Positions 42,632 to 51,810 of a DNA stretch of 64,000 nucleotides are shown here, one piece after another. Origin of the DNA: Flavobacterium psychroterrae (GTDB lineage: Bacteria; Bacteroidota; Bacteroidia; Flavobacteriales; Flavobacteriaceae); NCBI RefSeq assembly GCF_018380615.1, contig NZ_JAGYVZ010000004.1, positions 62,001 to 126,000 on the forward strand, read 5' to 3'. The position numbers were made by a program, and so were the translations under genes. The notes under the pieces are model-generated. The model ran no database searches and was not told the origin of the DNA. It saw only the letters and a list, made by a program, of their open reading frames with translations. Within the stretch, counting starts at the first letter, position 1. Every line of letters begins with the position of its first letter.

Positions 42632-43183
42632 ATGAAGAAACGATTGTATAAATTCATCTTTTTTAAGCTAATGGGCTGGAAAATAATAGGAATTGAAAAT
42701 GCGGAAGTGAAAAAATGTGTGATGATGGTGATGCCACATACAAGTAATCATGATTTTTATTTAGGAATTTTTACTCGTGGCATCTCTGGACTAGAGATGA
42801 ACTGGGTGGGAAAGAAGGAATTATTTAAATTTCCGATTGGATATTATTTCAGAAGCGTAGGAGGAGAACCGCTTGATCGCTCGGGCGGATTAAATAAAGT
42901 AGATTCGATTGCTGCAATTTTTGAAAGAAAAGAAGTTTTTCGTCTGGCTGTTGCTCCGGAAGGAACCCGCAAAGAAGTTAATGAAATTCGAACTGGTTTT
43001 TATTATATAGCACTCAAAGCAAATGTACCTATTGTTACGGTGGCTTTTGATTGGGGCAAAAAAGAAGTCAATTTTGGCAAACCATTTTTTCCAACAGGAA
43101 ATTACGAAGAGGACTTACAGATTTTGAAAAAACATTATGAAAGTGTTGTTGGCAAAATTCCTCATAACGGATTTCAACTTTAA
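42632..43183 (+). CDS. Small PlsC-like acyltransferase
   Basis: This 183-residue protein has PHTSNHDFYLGIF (about residues 35-47), which contains the H-x4-D catalytic motif of glycerolphosphate acyltransferases. GGEPLDRSGG (about 76-85), PEGTRKE (about 109-115) and VPIVTVAFDWG (about 129-139) are the other blocks. It lacks a clear N-terminal membrane helix and is shorter than PlsC (about 240). It could acylate lysophosphatidic acid or another lipid acceptor. It is transcribed alone and converges on the XRE gene across a hairpin at 43211-43258. Confidence 0.87.
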   Translation: MKKRLYKFIFFKLMGWKIIGIENAEVKKCVMMVMPHTSNHDFYLGIFTRGISGLEMNWVGKKELFKFPIGYYFRSVGGEPLDRSGGLNKVDSIAAIFERKEVFRLAVAPEGTRKEVNEIRTGFYYIALKANVPIVTVAFDWGKKEVNFGKPFFPTGNYEEDLQILKKHYESVVGKIPHNGFQL

Positions 43184-43210
43184 TTTTCGATCTTTTTAAT
43201 GTTACGGGAG

Positions 43211-43258
43211 AATCGTGTATTTGAAAATTATTTTTAATTTTTTTCAAATATGCGATTT
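43211..43258. terminator. Bidirectional terminator between acyltransferase and XRE genes
   Basis: AATCGTGTATTTGAAAA (43211-43227) faces TTTTCAAATATGCGATT (about 43242-43258), with two G-U-compatible positions and an AT-rich loop. A and T runs flank both sides. Confidence 0.7.
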
Positions 43259-43264
43259 TTCAAT

Positions 43265-43717
43265 TTATGGGTGATAGGCCTTAAAAGTTCCGTTTTTATA
43301 AAAAATAACAATTTTCTCAATTTCTCCTTCTTCAGAATTTAAATTTTGATTTTTAATTTCCGGGGCTGTTCTTGTTTCTGCTTTTTCAGTTTTCATATAA
43401 TTAACCTCAGAAAATAAATCCGGTCCAGCGAAATTTTCATTTACAGAAATAGGAGTGGGAGTTTTTATATTTTCAGAGACTTCATCATTATTTTTAGGAA
43501 AACTTCCTTTTCCGTTTATTATCCAATATAAATCTACATCCGGAAAAACTTCTAAAATTTTCATCACAAAATCCAAGCTTGGTTTGTTTCTGCCCGAAAG
43601 TAAGTGAGACATACTAGAGCGTTGCACACCAATTCTATCCGCAAAAGCAGAAGCATTTAAAGCATAATAATCAAGTATTATTTCAAGACGTTTTACAAAA
43701 TCATCGATGTTTACCAT
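43265..43717 (-). CDS. XRE-family helix-turn-helix regulator
   Basis: This 150-residue protein has an N-terminal Cro/C1-type domain (about residues 5-65). LDYYALNASAFADRIGVQRSSMSHLLSGRNKPSLDFVMKIL contains the helix-turn-helix, followed by FPDVDLYWIINGKGSFP, a common flavobacterial phrase. The C-terminal half is low-complexity and acidic, ending in a short beta segment (IEKIVIFYKNGTFKAYHP). Its start codon lies within a TTTAC-N4-GTAAA palindrome, and two further copies lie in its promoter region. It is likely autoregulated, and probably also controls the divergent M14 gene. Confidence 0.88.
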   Translation of the reverse strand: MVNIDDFVKRLEIILDYYALNASAFADRIGVQRSSMSHLLSGRNKPSLDFVMKILEVFPDVDLYWIINGKGSFPKNNDEVSENIKTPTPISVNENFAGPDLFSEVNYMKTEKAETRTAPEIKNQNLNSEEGEIEKIVIFYKNGTFKAYHP

Positions 43718-43794
43718 TGTAAATTATTGTTTTTAAAACCGTTGTTTACAAATGTAATTAAAAGAAGTTAATAAAGCAATTTTACAGTTGTAAA
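43710..43794 (-). promoter_or_regulatory. Three TTTAC-N4-GTAAA palindromes over the XRE promoter and start
   Basis: Sites are 43710-43723 (perfect, over the ATG), 43745-43758 (one mismatch) and 43781-43794 (perfect), with centres 35 and 36 bp apart. The middle site contains TACATTTG on the minus strand (43756-43749), a full -7 match, with TTG 20 bp further upstream (43779-43777). Binding there would block the XRE promoter. Confidence 0.7.
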
Positions 43795-43944
43795 TAGTTA
43801 TTTAATAAGCATATAACTAGCATAATAACTTTAGGTAATTATATTTAATTTATTGAAATACAATATATAGAGTATTAATATTTAAAGTAATAACAAATGT
43901 TAACACATATTGCGTTAGATAACCAATATCAGCCTAAAATTCTG

Positions 43945-44015
43945 TTTACATTTCTAAATTATTTCATTTTATCTTTGTTTACAATTGTAAAAAGAAAGAT
44001 GTTTACTTTTGTAAA
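43945..44015 (+). promoter_or_regulatory. Three TTTAC-N4-GTAAA palindromes over the M14 promoter
   Basis: Sites are 43945-43958 (one mismatch), 43978-43991 (perfect) and 44002-44015 (perfect, extended to GTTTAC...GTAAAC). The last contains TACTTTTG (44004-44011), a full -7 match. The middle one contains the TTG (43985-43987) that would be the -33 element (16-bp spacer). Both promoter elements are thus inside operators. Confidence 0.7.
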
Positions 44016-44028
44016 CAAATCAAAACAA

Positions 44029-45183
44029 ATGAATTTAGAAGAATTATTCAACCAATACAAAGAACAAAGCATTGAGGGTCGTTACTTAACTTTAGATCAT
44101 ATTCAACCTTTATTAGATAAACTAAATACTAATAATCAAGTACAAATAATTGGTAAATCAGTTTTAGATGAACCTATATATAGTTACCAAATTGGAACTG
44201 GAGAAACTCGTATTTATTTATGGTCTCAAATGCACGGAAATGAAAGCACAACAACAAAAGCATTATTTGACTTTATTAATGTATTAAACAGCGGATCAGA
44301 ATTTGCTGAGAAAATGCTTAAAACATTTACCTTTTATAGTATTCCAATTTTAAATCCTGATGGCGCGCGACTTTATACACGTGAAAATGCTAATATAGTA
44401 GACTTAAACCGTGACTCACAAAACCTAACTCAGCCGGAAAGTAAAGTATTAAGAGAAGCTTTTGAAACATTTAAACCTCATTATTGCTTTAATCTCCATG
44501 ATCAGCGCACTATTTTTGGTGCCGGAACTACTGGTAAACCTGCAACGGTATCTTTTTTAGCACCTTCATATAATGAAGAAAGAGAGATAAATGAAAACCG
44601 ATTAAAAGCTATCAATGTCATTGCAGGAGTTAACGATGTTCTACAACAGTATATTCCCGGTCAAGTAGGTCGTTTTGATGATTCCTTTAATATAAACTGT
44701 ATAGGAGATACTTTTCAATTTATGGGAGTACCAACCATTTTATTCGAAGCAGGGCATTTTGCTAACGATTACAATCGTGAACTAACTAGAAAATTCATAT
44801 TTTTCTCACTTATTTCAAGTTTTGCAATAATCAGCGAAAACGATTTAGTTGATAATCGAATTAGTGATTATTTGAATATTTCACAAAATAAAGTGGTTTT
44901 TTATGATTTTATGTATAAAAATATCAAAATAAATTATGATGGTATCGAAATTATTACGAATTTTGTCGCACAATACAAAGAAGAATTGATTGAAAATAAG
45001 ATTCATTTTAACGCTTATATTGTTGAAGTGGGCGAGTTGGAAAATTATTTTGGACATTACGAATATGATGGTAAAGAAGCTGTTTATTCCGATGACTATA
45101 ATGGTTTTCCCAAATTGAATCAAAAAGCAAATTTTTATTTAAATAAAAATGTTAAATTTGTTAACGGATTGATAAAAAGTTAA
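44029..45183 (+). CDS. M14-family zinc carboxypeptidase-like protein
   Basis: This 384-residue protein has QMHGNESTTTKALFDF (H-x2-E zinc motif, about residues 67-82), SIPILNPDGARLYTRENANIVDLNRD (about 105-130) and CFNLHDQRTIFGAG (second His, about 153-166). TILFEAGHF (about 238-246) supplies the catalytic Glu. No signal peptide is present from the ATG at 44029, so it probably acts in the cytoplasm on small peptides or amidated substrates. An in-frame ATG at 43897 would put three palindromes and the promoter inside the gene and is rejected. The Lrp-family gene follows after 77 bp. Confidence 0.88.
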   Translation: MNLEELFNQYKEQSIEGRYLTLDHIQPLLDKLNTNNQVQIIGKSVLDEPIYSYQIGTGETRIYLWSQMHGNESTTTKALFDFINVLNSGSEFAEKMLKTFTFYSIPILNPDGARLYTRENANIVDLNRDSQNLTQPESKVLREAFETFKPHYCFNLHDQRTIFGAGTTGKPATVSFLAPSYNEEREINENRLKAINVIAGVNDVLQQYIPGQVGRFDDSFNINCIGDTFQFMGVPTILFEAGHFANDYNRELTRKFIFFSLISSFAIISENDLVDNRISDYLNISQNKVVFYDFMYKNIKINYDGIEIITNFVAQYKEELIENKIHFNAYIVEVGELENYFGHYEYDGKEAVYSDDYNGFPKLNQKANFYLNKNVKFVNGLIKS

Positions 45184-45260
45184 TTTTTATGTGAATTTGT
45201 TGTTTTTTATATATATTTTTATACTTTGTTATAGCAATTAGTAATATTAATTAAAGAATT

Positions 45261-45740
45261 ATGAGTAAATTTCGTTTAGATGAAGTAGATCACCAGATTT
45301 TAGATATGTTAATAGACAATACGAGAGTTCCGTTTACTGACATTGCAAAAAAGCTATTGATATCTGCTGGTACAGTGCATGTTAGAGTAAAAAAAATGGA
45401 AGACGCCGGGATAATAATGGGATCGTCACTAGCCTTAGATTACGATAAATTAGGGTATTCATTTATTGCTTATGTTGGTGTATTCCTTAATAATACGTCT
45501 CAAACTAAATTTGTATTAGAGCGAATCAATCAAATTCCGTTCGTAACAGTAGCTTCTGTAACGACAGGAAAATTCAATATTTTTTGCAAAATTAGAGCAA
45601 AAGATACTAAACACGCAAAAGAGGTTATCTTCATGATTGATGATATCGAAGGTGTTTACAGAACAGAAACTATGATTTCATTAGAAGAAAGTATAAACGA
45701 TAAGAAGCGTTTGATGCATACTATATTTAAAAATATGTAA
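45261..45740 (+). CDS. Lrp/AsnC-family transcriptional regulator
   Basis: This 159-residue protein has an N-terminal winged helix, LDEVDHQILDMLIDNTRVPFTDIAKKLLISAGTVHVRVKKMEDAGII (about residues 5-51), and a C-terminal RAM ligand domain (about 65-140) with VASVTTGKFNIFCKIRAKD. It is of normal length. Such proteins sense amino acids and regulate their metabolism. Its position 77 bp behind the M14 peptidase gene, with no terminator seen between, suggests co-transcription and a shared amino acid or peptide signal. A terminator follows at 45769. Confidence 0.93.
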   Translation: MSKFRLDEVDHQILDMLIDNTRVPFTDIAKKLLISAGTVHVRVKKMEDAGIIMGSSLALDYDKLGYSFIAYVGVFLNNTSQTKFVLERINQIPFVTVASVTTGKFNIFCKIRAKDTKHAKEVIFMIDDIEGVYRTETMISLEESINDKKRLMHTIFKNM

Positions 45741-45768
45741 TATTTTCTTGAATGCTATATTAAAATAT

Positions 45769-45797
45769 AACCTCAAGTTTATTCTTGGGGTTTTTTT
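45769..45797 (+). terminator. Terminator after the Lrp gene
   Basis: AACCTCAAG (45769-45777) pairs with CTTGGGGTT (45784-45792), with one G-U pair, and is followed by seven T. Confidence 0.85.
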
Positions 45798-45828
45798 ATG
45801 ACTAATTAACCACCAACTACAATAGATT

Positions 45829-48414
45829 ATGTATACGTTGCCTAAAATAGAACGTTTTAATCAAGATGTTCTCTCAAAATATCACATTTATAATAGTGTA
45901 TTTATAACTTTGCCTTTTGATTCTATAGATAATACAGGAGCGTTACTTCCTTTATTTACAGAAACTTGCGAAACAGGATTTAAAAAAAATGAAACACCAA
46001 AAGAAATTTTTAATTTCTTTTCTGACAGATATTTAAATAACCCATCTGAAGCGGAAAAAATCGATTTAATGTTTCGATTTATTCAGTACACAGAACGTCA
46101 GATTGTACTATTTGACGCAATTGAAGACGCTGCTTTTCCGGAAGTTAATAACATGGAAGGTCGCGGATCTTTACGTGATATTAAAGAGAAATCAGATGCT
46201 AAGGAAAAAGACGGGGAATTAATCGAATTCCTTGAAAACTTTAATGTAAGAACTGTTTTAACAGCGCATCCAACTCAATTTTATCCAGGACCTGTTTTAG
46301 GAATTATAAATGATTTGACTGATGCAATTCGCTCTAATGATTTGTTGAAAATTAAAGAATTATTAGCTCAATTAGGAAAAACTCCTTTCATACAAAATGA
46401 AAAACCAAATCCTTACGATGAAGCGGTTTCTTTGATTTGGTATTTAGAGAATGTATTCTATGCTACATCTGGAGAAATAGTTCATTATTTGCAGAAAAAT
46501 ATCTTACATGGAAAAGCCATTCAGAATAAATTAATTAAGCTTGGTTTTTGGCCTGGAGGAGATCGTGATGGAAATCCGTTTGTTACTACCGAAATAACTT
46601 TAAAAGTTGCGGAACGTTTGCGTACTTCAATTTTGAAATGCTATTATGTTGAAATGAGAAATTTAAAACGTAAGTTAACCTTCTCAGGTGTAGATACTTT
46701 GGTATCTGAACTTGAACATAAACTTTATCGTTCTGTTTTTTATTCTAAAGGAGAAATTTATATCACTTTAGAAGAATTATTATCACAATTAAACCTTATC
46801 CGTGATATTATTATTGAAAAACATCAGTCTCTTTATTTAGACGATCTGGAAGCATTTTTGGTAAAGATCAATCTTTTTGGTTTTCATTTTGCCACGTTGG
46901 ATATTCGTCAAAACAGTAAAATTCATAATGTCGTTTTTAAGGATGTTGTGAATCATTATTTGAATTCAGGTTCTGAAATATTCCCTAAAAATTATTTTGA
47001 ATTATCTGAAGATGAAAAACTAATTGTCTTATCTAAAGTAAAAGGAGATTTAAATCCTGCCGACTTTGAGGATGAAATTACAAGATTAACTTTAGAGTCT
47101 GTTCAGGCTATCAAAACTATCCAGAAAGCTAATGGTGAATTTGGTGCAAATCGTTACATTATCAGTAACAATGAAAGTGCGCTGAATGTCATGGAAACTT
47201 TTGCAATGATTCGTTTAAACAATTGGGAAAACCCAAGTGTTGATGTAATTCCGCTTTTTGAATCTGTTGATGATTTACAAAGTGCGCATCATATTATGGA
47301 ACAGTTGTACACCAATCCTGAATATTCAAAACACTTAAAACAAAGAGGAAATAAGCAAACTATTATGTTGGGTTTCTCTGATGGAACCAAAGATGGTGGA
47401 TATTTAATGGCGAACTGGAGTATTTATCTGGCAAAAATTGCTCTAACAGAAATTTCCAGAAAATACGGAATTAAAGTTATTTTCTTTGATGGTCGTGGTG
47501 GACCTCCCGCACGTGGTGGAGGAAAAACACATAAATTCTATGCTTCGTTAGGACCAAAAATTGAAAATAACGAAATTCAGATTACTGTTCAGGGACAAAC
47601 TATTAGTTCTAATTTTGGAACTTTAGATTCTTGTCGTTATAATATTGAGAATTTATTGACTGCCGGTGTAACAAATCAGGTATTTAGTAAAGAGAAAAAT
47701 GAACTAAGCGCTGATGAAACTCAAATTTTGACGCAATTAGCAGATTTGGGTTATGAAAAATATTTAAGTTTCAAAAATCACCCAAAATTCATTCCGTATT
47801 TAGAAAAAATGAGTACTTTAAAGTATTACTCTAAAACAAATATAGGAAGCCGTCCGTCTAAAAGAAGCAAATCTGAATCATTAGATTTTGCTGATTTAAG
47901 AGCAATTCCGTTCGTGGGATCGTGGAGTCAATTGAAGCAAAACGTACCAGGATTTTTTGGTGTTGGAACTGCGTTGAAACATTTTGAAGAAACGAATCAA
48001 TGGGACAAAATTCATGATTTATATCACAATTCATTATTCTTTAAAACGCTGCTTGAAAACAGTATGATGTCACTGGCAAAATCATTTTTACCATTAACAG
48101 CATATATGAGAAATGATCCTGAATTTGGTGAATTCTGGCAAATTATCTTCGATGAATTTCAGGAAACAAAACGTTTATTATTGAAAATTGCAGGACATAA
48201 AACGTTAATGGAAAATTATCCTGATGGTATAGCATCAATTCAGGTAAGAGAACGTATTGTGTTGCCATTGTTGACAATACAACAATATGCCTTACTGAGA
48301 ATTAATGAATTGAACAAAGAAAATGAGGTTGATGAAGAGCTGGTAAAAGTGTACGAAAAAATTGTTACAAGATCACTTTTCGGAAATACTAATGCAAGTA
48401 GAAACTCGGCATAA
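45829..48414 (+). CDS. ppc: Phosphoenolpyruvate carboxylase
   Basis: This 861-residue enzyme makes oxaloacetate from PEP and bicarbonate. RTVLTAHPTQFYPGP (about residues 142-156) has the catalytic His. GFWPGGDRDGNPFVT (about 240-254), FHFATLDIRQNS (about 353-364), FDGRGGPPARGGGKTH (about 560-575) and RPSKRSKSE (about 682-690) are the family blocks. It is slightly shorter than E. coli Ppc (883). The C-terminus reads RNSA instead of the usual RNTG, so the terminal active-site segment differs slightly. The DinB gene follows after 53 bp. Confidence 0.96.
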   Translation: MYTLPKIERFNQDVLSKYHIYNSVFITLPFDSIDNTGALLPLFTETCETGFKKNETPKEIFNFFSDRYLNNPSEAEKIDLMFRFIQYTERQIVLFDAIEDAAFPEVNNMEGRGSLRDIKEKSDAKEKDGELIEFLENFNVRTVLTAHPTQFYPGPVLGIINDLTDAIRSNDLLKIKELLAQLGKTPFIQNEKPNPYDEAVSLIWYLENVFYATSGEIVHYLQKNILHGKAIQNKLIKLGFWPGGDRDGNPFVTTEITLKVAERLRTSILKCYYVEMRNLKRKLTFSGVDTLVSELEHKLYRSVFYSKGEIYITLEELLSQLNLIRDIIIEKHQSLYLDDLEAFLVKINLFGFHFATLDIRQNSKIHNVVFKDVVNHYLNSGSEIFPKNYFELSEDEKLIVLSKVKGDLNPADFEDEITRLTLESVQAIKTIQKANGEFGANRYIISNNESALNVMETFAMIRLNNWENPSVDVIPLFESVDDLQSAHHIMEQLYTNPEYSKHLKQRGNKQTIMLGFSDGTKDGGYLMANWSIYLAKIALTEISRKYGIKVIFFDGRGGPPARGGGKTHKFYASLGPKIENNEIQITVQGQTISSNFGTLDSCRYNIENLLTAGVTNQVFSKEKNELSADETQILTQLADLGYEKYLSFKNHPKFIPYLEKMSTLKYYSKTNIGSRPSKRSKSESLDFADLRAIPFVGSWSQLKQNVPGFFGVGTALKHFEETNQWDKIHDLYHNSLFFKTLLENSMMSLAKSFLPLTAYMRNDPEFGEFWQIIFDEFQETKRLLLKIAGHKTLMENYPDGIASIQVRERIVLPLLTIQQYALLRINELNKENEVDEELVKVYEKIVTRSLFGNTNASRNSA

Positions 48415-51402: not shown

Positions 51403-51810
51403 TTAATCTTCATCGTCTTCATCATCTTCATCAGCGATATCATCCGGATCTTTGTCTTCATCATCATCGTCATCTCCACCGTCAACATCTGGTTTGTCGA
51501 GATTATCATCTTCATCGTCATCATCAATATCATCATCAAGATCAAGACCTTTTACTGGTTCGATTACATCAACATCTACGTCGATATCATCATCTTCATC
51601 GTAATTCTCGATTCTGTCAGCAAGTTTTGTACTAATTTTTACTAAATAAATAGTGTCTTCAGTACGAACTTCAACAGCCTCGATCAATTCGTTTTTAGCA
51701 TTTCTAAAACGGATTACATCCGAATCATCATAACCATCAGGAAATTTCTCAACCAAAAGGTTCAAAATTTCGTTGGTAAGTTTAGCGTAGTCTACTATAA
51801 CTCTTTTCAT
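51403..51810 (-). CDS. Small protein with a long Asp/Glu tail
   Basis: This 135-residue protein has a basic-to-neutral N-terminal domain (about residues 1-70). MKRVIVDYAKLTNEILNLLV is followed by a YDDSDVIRFRNAKNELIEAVEV beta pattern. The C-terminal tail (about 70-135) is mostly Asp and Glu in runs such as DDDDEDD, giving a very acidic protein. The architecture recalls acidic-tail proteins like RNA polymerase delta, but I see no sequence proof. The gene begins 7 bp after the deoxyhypusine-synthase-like gene stop and ends at its own terminator, so it is in the same transcript. Confidence 0.8.
   Translation of the reverse strand: MKRVIVDYAKLTNEILNLLVEKFPDGYDDSDVIRFRNAKNELIEAVEVRTEDTIYLVKISTKLADRIENYDEDDDIDVDVDVIEPVKGLDLDDDIDDDDEDDNLDKPDVDGGDDDDDEDKDPDDIADEDDEDDED

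Follow-up and report, generated by a model that had tools for sequence, protein, structure and literature searches.

A conserved palindrome array between divergent XRE and M14-lrp genes of Flavobacteriaceae, the probable operators of a looping autorepressor

Introduction

In the immunity regions of phages lambda and 434, each of two promoters has three operators, which are occupied by a helix-turn-helix (HTH) repressor that regulates its own gene and links the two operator clusters through a DNA loop; with lambda CI, one occupancy state activates CI's own promoter. The lac and gal systems also use separate operators and depend on the helical phase between them, while the C proteins of restriction-modification systems and the HigA-type antitoxins are small autoregulating HTH proteins. 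Lrp-family proteins, in turn, often regulate their neighbours. Looping autorepressors are a known kind of regulator, and the locus described here would be a variant of them. It lies in a window of 64,000 nucleotides from Flavobacterium psychroterrae (contig NZ_JAGYVZ010000004.1, positions 62,001 to 126,000, numbered here from the first letter of the window), where an XRE-family regulator gene faces genes for an M14 metallopeptidase and an Lrp/AsnC-family regulator across an array of palindromes. The regulator is present in nearly all Flavobacteriaceae genomes searched (283/299), yet no description of the XRE-M14-Lrp module was recognised in the literature searched, with most subscription journals outside the scope of that search. 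The terms XRE, Lrp and palindrom are absent from the available portion of the main text of a Flavobacterium psychrophilum transcriptome study (PMC9723704).

Results

Six palindromes in the XRE-M14 gap

A reading of the sequence alone (hereafter the sequence-only reading) had described six TTTAC-N4-GTAAA palindromes within 306 bp, three at each of two divergent promoters, and this arrangement was confirmed in full, with four perfect copies beginning at 43710, 43781, 43978 and 44002 and two copies with one mismatch beginning at 43745 and 43945. The gap between the start codons of XRE and M14 measures 311 bp (43718-44028). Named from the M14 side, the putative operators are S1 (44002-44015), S2 (43978-43991), S3 (43945-43958, 33 bp upstream of S2), S4 (43781-43794), S5 (43745-43758) and S6 (43710-43723), of which S3 and S5 bear the mismatches. 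A degenerate seventh palindrome, TAACAAATGTTA, is located in the middle of the gap (43891-43902) and has similar counterparts in some of the 30 best loci of our alignment. An Rfam scan of positions 43000-46000 at gathering scores gave zero matches.

With up to one mismatch allowed, the whole window contains 14 matches compared to a shuffle mean of 8.2, a total that is unremarkable by itself since 14 was reached in one of 100 shuffles; six of the 14 are concentrated in the XRE-M14 gap. Throughout the 5.74 Mb genome there are 37 perfect sites and 29 sites for the reversed control pattern, so that the motif shows little or no genome-wide excess. At the rate given by the 33 perfect sites outside the locus, the Poisson chance of four perfect sites in 306 bp is ~4e-13. 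Among those 33 sites, 28 fall in ORFs of at least 120 aa, four are intergenic and one is unclear. The motif is thus local as judged by perfect copies, given the 37 sites against 29 for the reversed pattern and the 28/33 other copies in ORFs, and the check on motif density that had been proposed for it showed that perfect sites reach no comparable density elsewhere in the intergenic DNA of the same genome. A wider regulon in this genome was sought via all 33 off-locus perfect sites and was not found. Comparison with genome G114, made with perfect sites only, revealed a counterpart no more than 25 bp from the corresponding position for 13 of the 33 (12 in ORFs and the unclear one) and for none of the four intergenic sites.

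Promoter boxes and a start codon lie within the operators

On the M14 side, the sequence-only reading had placed a -7 box and a -33 element in consecutive palindromes. The -7 box, TACTTTTG, indeed lies in S1 on the plus strand (44004-44011), whereas the proposed -33 TTG (43985-43987, in the region overlapped by S2 and separated from the -7 box by a 16-bp spacer) is less certain. In the available passages of a study of F. johnsoniae promoters, the -33 motif is far less evident than the -7 box, whose consensus is TAHHTTTG, and many promoters have 4-5 nt between this box and the transcription start (PMC6847099). Transcription starts are accordingly predicted near 44016 (+) and 43744 (-). The claim for the XRE side held throughout: the -7 box TACATTTG (43756-43749, minus strand) lies in S5, and the XRE ATG lies in S6, which reads TTTACAATGGTAAA on the minus strand. 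Because S6 spans the start codon, the first residues of the protein, M-V-N (ATG GTA AAC), are written by the operator. Relative to the XRE -7 box, S4 is located upstream. On the plus strand, just upstream of S2 (43970-43977), a further -7-like box, TATCTTTG, could provide an alternative M14 start; it is absent from the other 29 loci of the alignment.

The resemblance between TAHHTTTG and half of the motif, with TACNTTTG contained in TTTACNTTTGTAAA, raises the alternative that the palindromes are a by-product of AT-rich promoter DNA. First-order Markov simulation of the 329 bp around the gap (5000 runs), however, produced on average 0.115 sites and never more than three from composition, compared to the six observed, and together with the distribution of the sites among genomes described below this makes such an origin vanishingly improbable.

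Encoded proteins and operon structure

The XRE-family regulator (150 aa, 43265-43717, minus strand) consists of an HTH domain, a low-confidence linker and a C-terminal beta-hairpin tail. It matches Pfam HTH_3 above the gathering score (26.6 bits against 23), and its AlphaFold monomer model displays helices within residues 4-68, segments of low confidence between residues 79 and 113, and strands at 136-139 and 145-148. Both ends of the protein are conserved, including the sequence of the C-terminal hairpin (28 rows). Assignment as a lambda CI-type repressor was rejected, as the protein scores 20.7 bits, below the Phage_CI_repr cut-off of 22, and according to the model and Pfam it carries the linker and a short hairpin in place of a C-terminal dimerisation/peptidase domain. 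In PADLOC, XRE had weak HTH matches with a best value of 0.0005, Lrp likewise had weak matches with a best value of 2.5e-05, and M14 had none. A toxin-antitoxin or restriction function was dropped because the partner gene is absent; no restriction or toxin gene was seen beside XRE when the ORF list of the window was inspected by eye. Elsewhere in the window, an ORF at 51403-51810 (minus strand) has long aspartate/glutamate runs towards the C-terminus of its protein.

The M14 metallopeptidase (384 aa, 44029-45183, plus strand) matches Pfam Peptidase_M14 with 42.4 bits (cut-off 21.6). Residues H69, E72, R118, N127, R128, H157 and E240 are invariant across 23 rows, and we take these to be the positions expected of the M14 family, with the residue roles that this implies. 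Its model (pLDDT 90.6) has a carboxypeptidase-like fold, with 4b6z, a Burkholderia metallocarboxypeptidase, as the best Foldseek match (TM ~0.5), and an extra C-terminal beta domain. No obvious signal peptide was apparent by eye. The murein tripeptide amidase MpaA was considered and rejected, as the score of 25.7 bits falls short of the NCBIfam equivalog cut-off of 157.

M14 is followed on its strand by the Lrp/AsnC-family regulator (159 aa, 45261-45740, plus strand), which contains a Pfam HTH_AsnC-type domain and the ligand-binding domain AsnC_trans_reg, both above their cut-offs. A consensus scan, the sole method used here for terminators, identified a terminator-like hairpin after lrp (45769-45792, plus strand) and none between M14 and lrp, suggesting that the two genes probably form one operon. 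A conserved separate lrp promoter was not found in the 75 bp searched, with TAHHTTTG in 11/36 loci and a box like SM5, as defined in the available part of PMC9723704, in 2/36.

Conservation in Flavobacterium and Flavobacteriaceae

XRE matches were obtained in 143/199 Flavobacterium genomes (counting weak matches in G016, G145 and G150), 283/299 genomes of Flavobacteriaceae (E 1e-10), 189/296 of the order (E 1e-8) and 50/198 of the class (E 1e-10), the narrower groups being also represented in the wider draws. The XRE and M14 genes are divergently oriented in 38/40 low-identity genus loci, in all 80 named genus loci, which overlap with the other genus genomes sampled, and in all 20 long-flank loci from 19 other genera; the two remaining low-identity loci are truncated by contig ends and give no M14 match. 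Lrp follows M14 in 38/40, 79/80 and 20/20 of these loci, respectively (137/140 in total). Judged from this distribution, the layout of XRE facing M14-Lrp is old.

The palindromes, for which conservation in orthologous loci had been named as a check, are conserved across the family. In the 30 best loci, our own included, the operators stand as nearly invariant islands in diverged spacer DNA. The pair S1+S2, 24 bp apart, is present in 76/88 genus rows and 75/113 rows of other genera, a site at S3 (33-36 bp from S2) in 57/88 and 35/113, at S4, the least conserved of all, in 51/88 and 14/113, at S5 in 81/88 and 66/113, and at S6 in 63/88 and 85/113. The 88 genus rows count two genomes twice (G152 as L080 and L132, G018 as L054 and L133), and three loci (L066, L076 and L260) were left out as they had no M14 match. 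In our view this is a real, old and local switch.

Site arrays beyond the family

In 13/20 order-level loci, the 700 bp upstream of XRE contain at least two sites, and an M14 match was present in the stretch in 16/20, often non-adjacent; in other families of Flavobacteriales, M14 and XRE often do not adjoin directly. In six loci of one family (L155, L157, L159, L160, L162 and L163), a membrane protein gene, which we presume to be TerC-like, separates M14 from XRE. Three of them (L157, L160 and L162) have two sites 234-235 bp apart in the M14-TerC gap, near the S2-S5 spacing of the window, and one further locus of the six has sites 268 bp apart in this gap. In other orders of the class, 9/14 loci have at least two sites near XRE, and M14 matches are absent from the 1.5 kb examined in all 14. 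Since these arrays occur near XRE with no M14 match, autoregulation may predate the link to M14. By eye, a look-alike of DtxR/MntR-type metal regulators is divergent from XRE in L328 and one gene away in L332, two loci of another order, which together with the TerC-like gene hints at a metal link. In L337, L341 and L342, XRE with its site arrays lies downstream of a same-strand gene that is presumably RecF-like.

Palindromes accompany XRE

The 24-bp site pair is present in 118/199 genus genomes, as a single copy in 109 of the 118, compared to 2/199 for its reversed control, counts that an origin from promoter composition does not predict. It occurs in 117/143 XRE-positive and 1/56 XRE-negative Flavobacterium genomes (Fisher p 9e-28, uncorrected for kinship), and the sole XRE-negative genome with the pair, G050, is 83% complete.

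Twelve XRE-less Flavobacterium genomes, namely 11 of the 56 XRE-negatives and G707, were chosen by hand. None has an intact XRE match, although weak matches were found in G042 and G068, and in G707 a piece of the XRE tail persists beside M14. All 12 retain M14 and the adjoining Lrp. In the 120 bp before M14, sites with at most one mismatch number zero in eight of these genomes, one in one, two in two and three in one, so that at least two sites remain in 3/12 compared to 82/88 XRE-positive rows; the three loci concerned (L209, L210 and L211) include some perfect sites. A TAHHTTTG box before M14, read by eye, is retained in 9/12, and in the other three (L214, L217 and L220) the M14 start lies within ~55 bp of a same-strand acyltransferase gene. 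Among twelve XRE-less genomes chosen outside the genus, no site was present in any of the eight that could be assessed; two had no M14 match and two were not assessable. XRE fragments are present in one of them, G394. A second, longer M14 relative (frames of 469-499 aa) was observed in eight XRE-less genomes of other genera (G248, G262, G306, G347, G349, G381, G467 and G477).

These comparisons bear on who binds the palindromes. Binding by Lrp or another regulator would suit a gene that adjoins M14 in nearly all loci, but most sites are gone from the 12 XRE-less Flavobacterium genomes, in which Lrp stays in place, and in other orders arrays occur close to XRE in stretches of 1.5 kb that contain neither an M14 nor an Lrp match, leaving this a very slight prospect. 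The sites track XRE, not Lrp, since XRE-less genomes lose most sites yet retain Lrp, and XRE is the likely binder, in support of the sequence-only reading, which had named it as the obvious candidate. The same genomes mostly lose the palindromes while retaining -7 boxes, which further argues against palindromes as promoter by-products.

They also bear on the sign of control. XRE could be an activator or a dual regulator in which one occupancy state switches a promoter on, as with lambda CI; the multiple sites at each promoter, conserved to different degrees, would fit this, as would the location of S3 and S4 upstream of the -7 boxes. However, the -7 boxes lie within S1 and S5, so that a protein bound there should keep polymerase out, and the M14 -7 box retained in 9/12 XRE-less genomes would be needless for an activator-dependent promoter. 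We therefore regard activation or dual control as quite unlikely. Repression by XRE is favoured because the -7 box often outlives both sites and regulator, and the earlier view of the array as a repressor switch is to that extent supported by comparison.

Spacing between the two clusters

Phasing was measured as the S2-to-S5 distance of each locus; 26/201 loci gave no distance, as the pair or S5 was unrecognised, and two more were excluded (pair not 24 bp, or distance too long). The distances clump near 201, 213, 223, 233, 245 and 257 bp. This was seen in a first set of 111 loci, in which the 31 from outside the genus had Rayleigh R values of 0.70 at 11.0 bp and 0.73 at 11.5 bp. Clumping with a period of 11.0-11.5 bp was recorded as a prediction before a second set of 80 further family loci was fetched. 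Measured by an unchanged rule, this second set provided 64 distances from 79 usable loci, with R values of 0.74, 0.73 and 0.68 at 10.5, 11.0 and 11.5 bp, respectively, and a phase at 11.0 bp of 3.9 compared to 3.5 in the 31 other-genus loci of the first. Ridges drawn post hoc on data already seen (198-204, 211-215, 221-226, 232-235, 243-246 and 253-260 bp) hold 168/174 loci, and the troughs hold two.

Blocks of species share one distance (42/173 at 233 bp), which inflates the Rayleigh values. The clumps may accordingly be due to common descent plus a small number of chance indels, with XRE repressing through each cluster separately and no loop, the more so as either cluster alone could block its own promoter. 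Because kin share distances, tree-separated pairs were used. Among 86 such pairs (probably including one self-pair with difference 0, as G152 entered twice as L080 and L132), 63 differ by 0-3 bp, 14 by 9-14 bp, six by 20-26 bp and three by more, and none by 4-8 or 15-19 bp. In a control spacer, from S1 to the M14 start, 5/12 differences of 4-29 bp fall in the 4-8 and 15-19 bp ranges, compared to 0/20 for S2-S5. A jitter null reproduced the S2-S5 pattern in 0/5000 runs with a loose site rule and gave p 0.0074 with a strict rule, and a uniform null gave p 0.04 at 10.5 bp and 0.002 at 11.0 bp. With a fixed 11-bp period, 15/20 S2-S5 differences are in phase compared to 7/12 for the control, a weak contrast that speaks for separate clusters. 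Taken together, the empty ranges among separated pairs and the jitter null make repression with no loop rather unlikely.

The best period varies, from ~10.5 bp in the second set and 11.5 bp in the first to 11.7-11.9 bp for the pair differences. Helical repeats fitted to lac loops in vivo include 11.08 and 11.60 bp in the available part of PMC1762422. The clumped spacing fits helical phasing and a DNA loop, and a protein bridge between the clusters would be its simplest reading. Two clusters with helically phased spacing, as expected of a looping repressor, were thus found entirely from evolutionary evidence and with a weak fixed-period contrast. This spacing and the family-wide spread of the module are new relative to the sequence-only reading.

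Discussion

Proposed mechanism

We consider it probable that XRE is a local looping repressor that acts through the palindromes on both its own gene and the divergent M14-lrp pair. In this mechanism, XRE would bind the TTTAC-N4-GTAAA sites, so that occupancy of S1 and S5 covers the -7 boxes of both promoters and occupancy of S6 the XRE start codon, with S2, S3 and S4 adjoining the covered elements. XRE at the M14-side cluster would then contact XRE at the XRE-side cluster, such that the spacer of ~200 bp loops and both promoters are closed at once; the bridge is perhaps made through the C-terminal hairpin, which is a guess. A peptide, an amino acid or another metabolite may open the loop, and the peptide or amino acid circuit proposed from the gene content remains a suggestion.

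A broader proposal is that the XRE family is an ancient autorepressor of Bacteroidia that acts via arrays of one palindrome and has acquired lineage-specific partners, M14-lrp in Flavobacteriaceae, looping by pairing of C-terminal hairpins and, in Flavobacteriaceae, sensing a product or substrate of M14. We hold this as possible, if doubtful; were it true, selection on helical phase would have left a natural record in this locus. Should the loop be real, the locus would offer extensive natural data on the way in which selection keeps operator spacing to helical turns, and an example of operators that incorporate -7 boxes and a start codon. The locus also gives an entry point to the study of an M14 peptidase that is uncharacterised and has no obvious signal peptide.

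Comparison with known systems

MpaA and other M14 carboxypeptidases share the M14 domain with the peptidase of this locus; the MpaA match is weak (25.7 bits) and far below the cut-off of 157, and the protein here differs in its extra C-terminal beta domain. The C proteins and HigA-type antitoxins are among the weak fold matches of XRE (E ~0.01-0.07). Unlike theirs, the XRE gene has no restriction or toxin neighbour, as seen by eye, and its neighbours M14 and Lrp persist in genomes that lack XRE. The lac and gal looping repressors have in common with the XRE locus their separate operators and phasing, but belong to a different protein family, and the phasing is known from reporters for lac/gal and from evolution for the XRE locus. 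The lambda and 434 immunity regions share with the XRE locus the operator layout and an HTH regulator, and with the proposed mechanism autoregulation and a loop between the clusters. The HTH domain shows weak fold likeness to those of 434, SinR and C proteins, with nothing at E of 0.001 or below, and it matches PHROG families of phage regulators with E values down to 3e-10. In contrast to lambda and 434, however, the XRE locus is chromosomal, has a 311-bp gap with no second repressor opposite, encodes a regulator with no CI-type C-terminal domain, and has as its putative targets a peptidase and an Lrp regulator.
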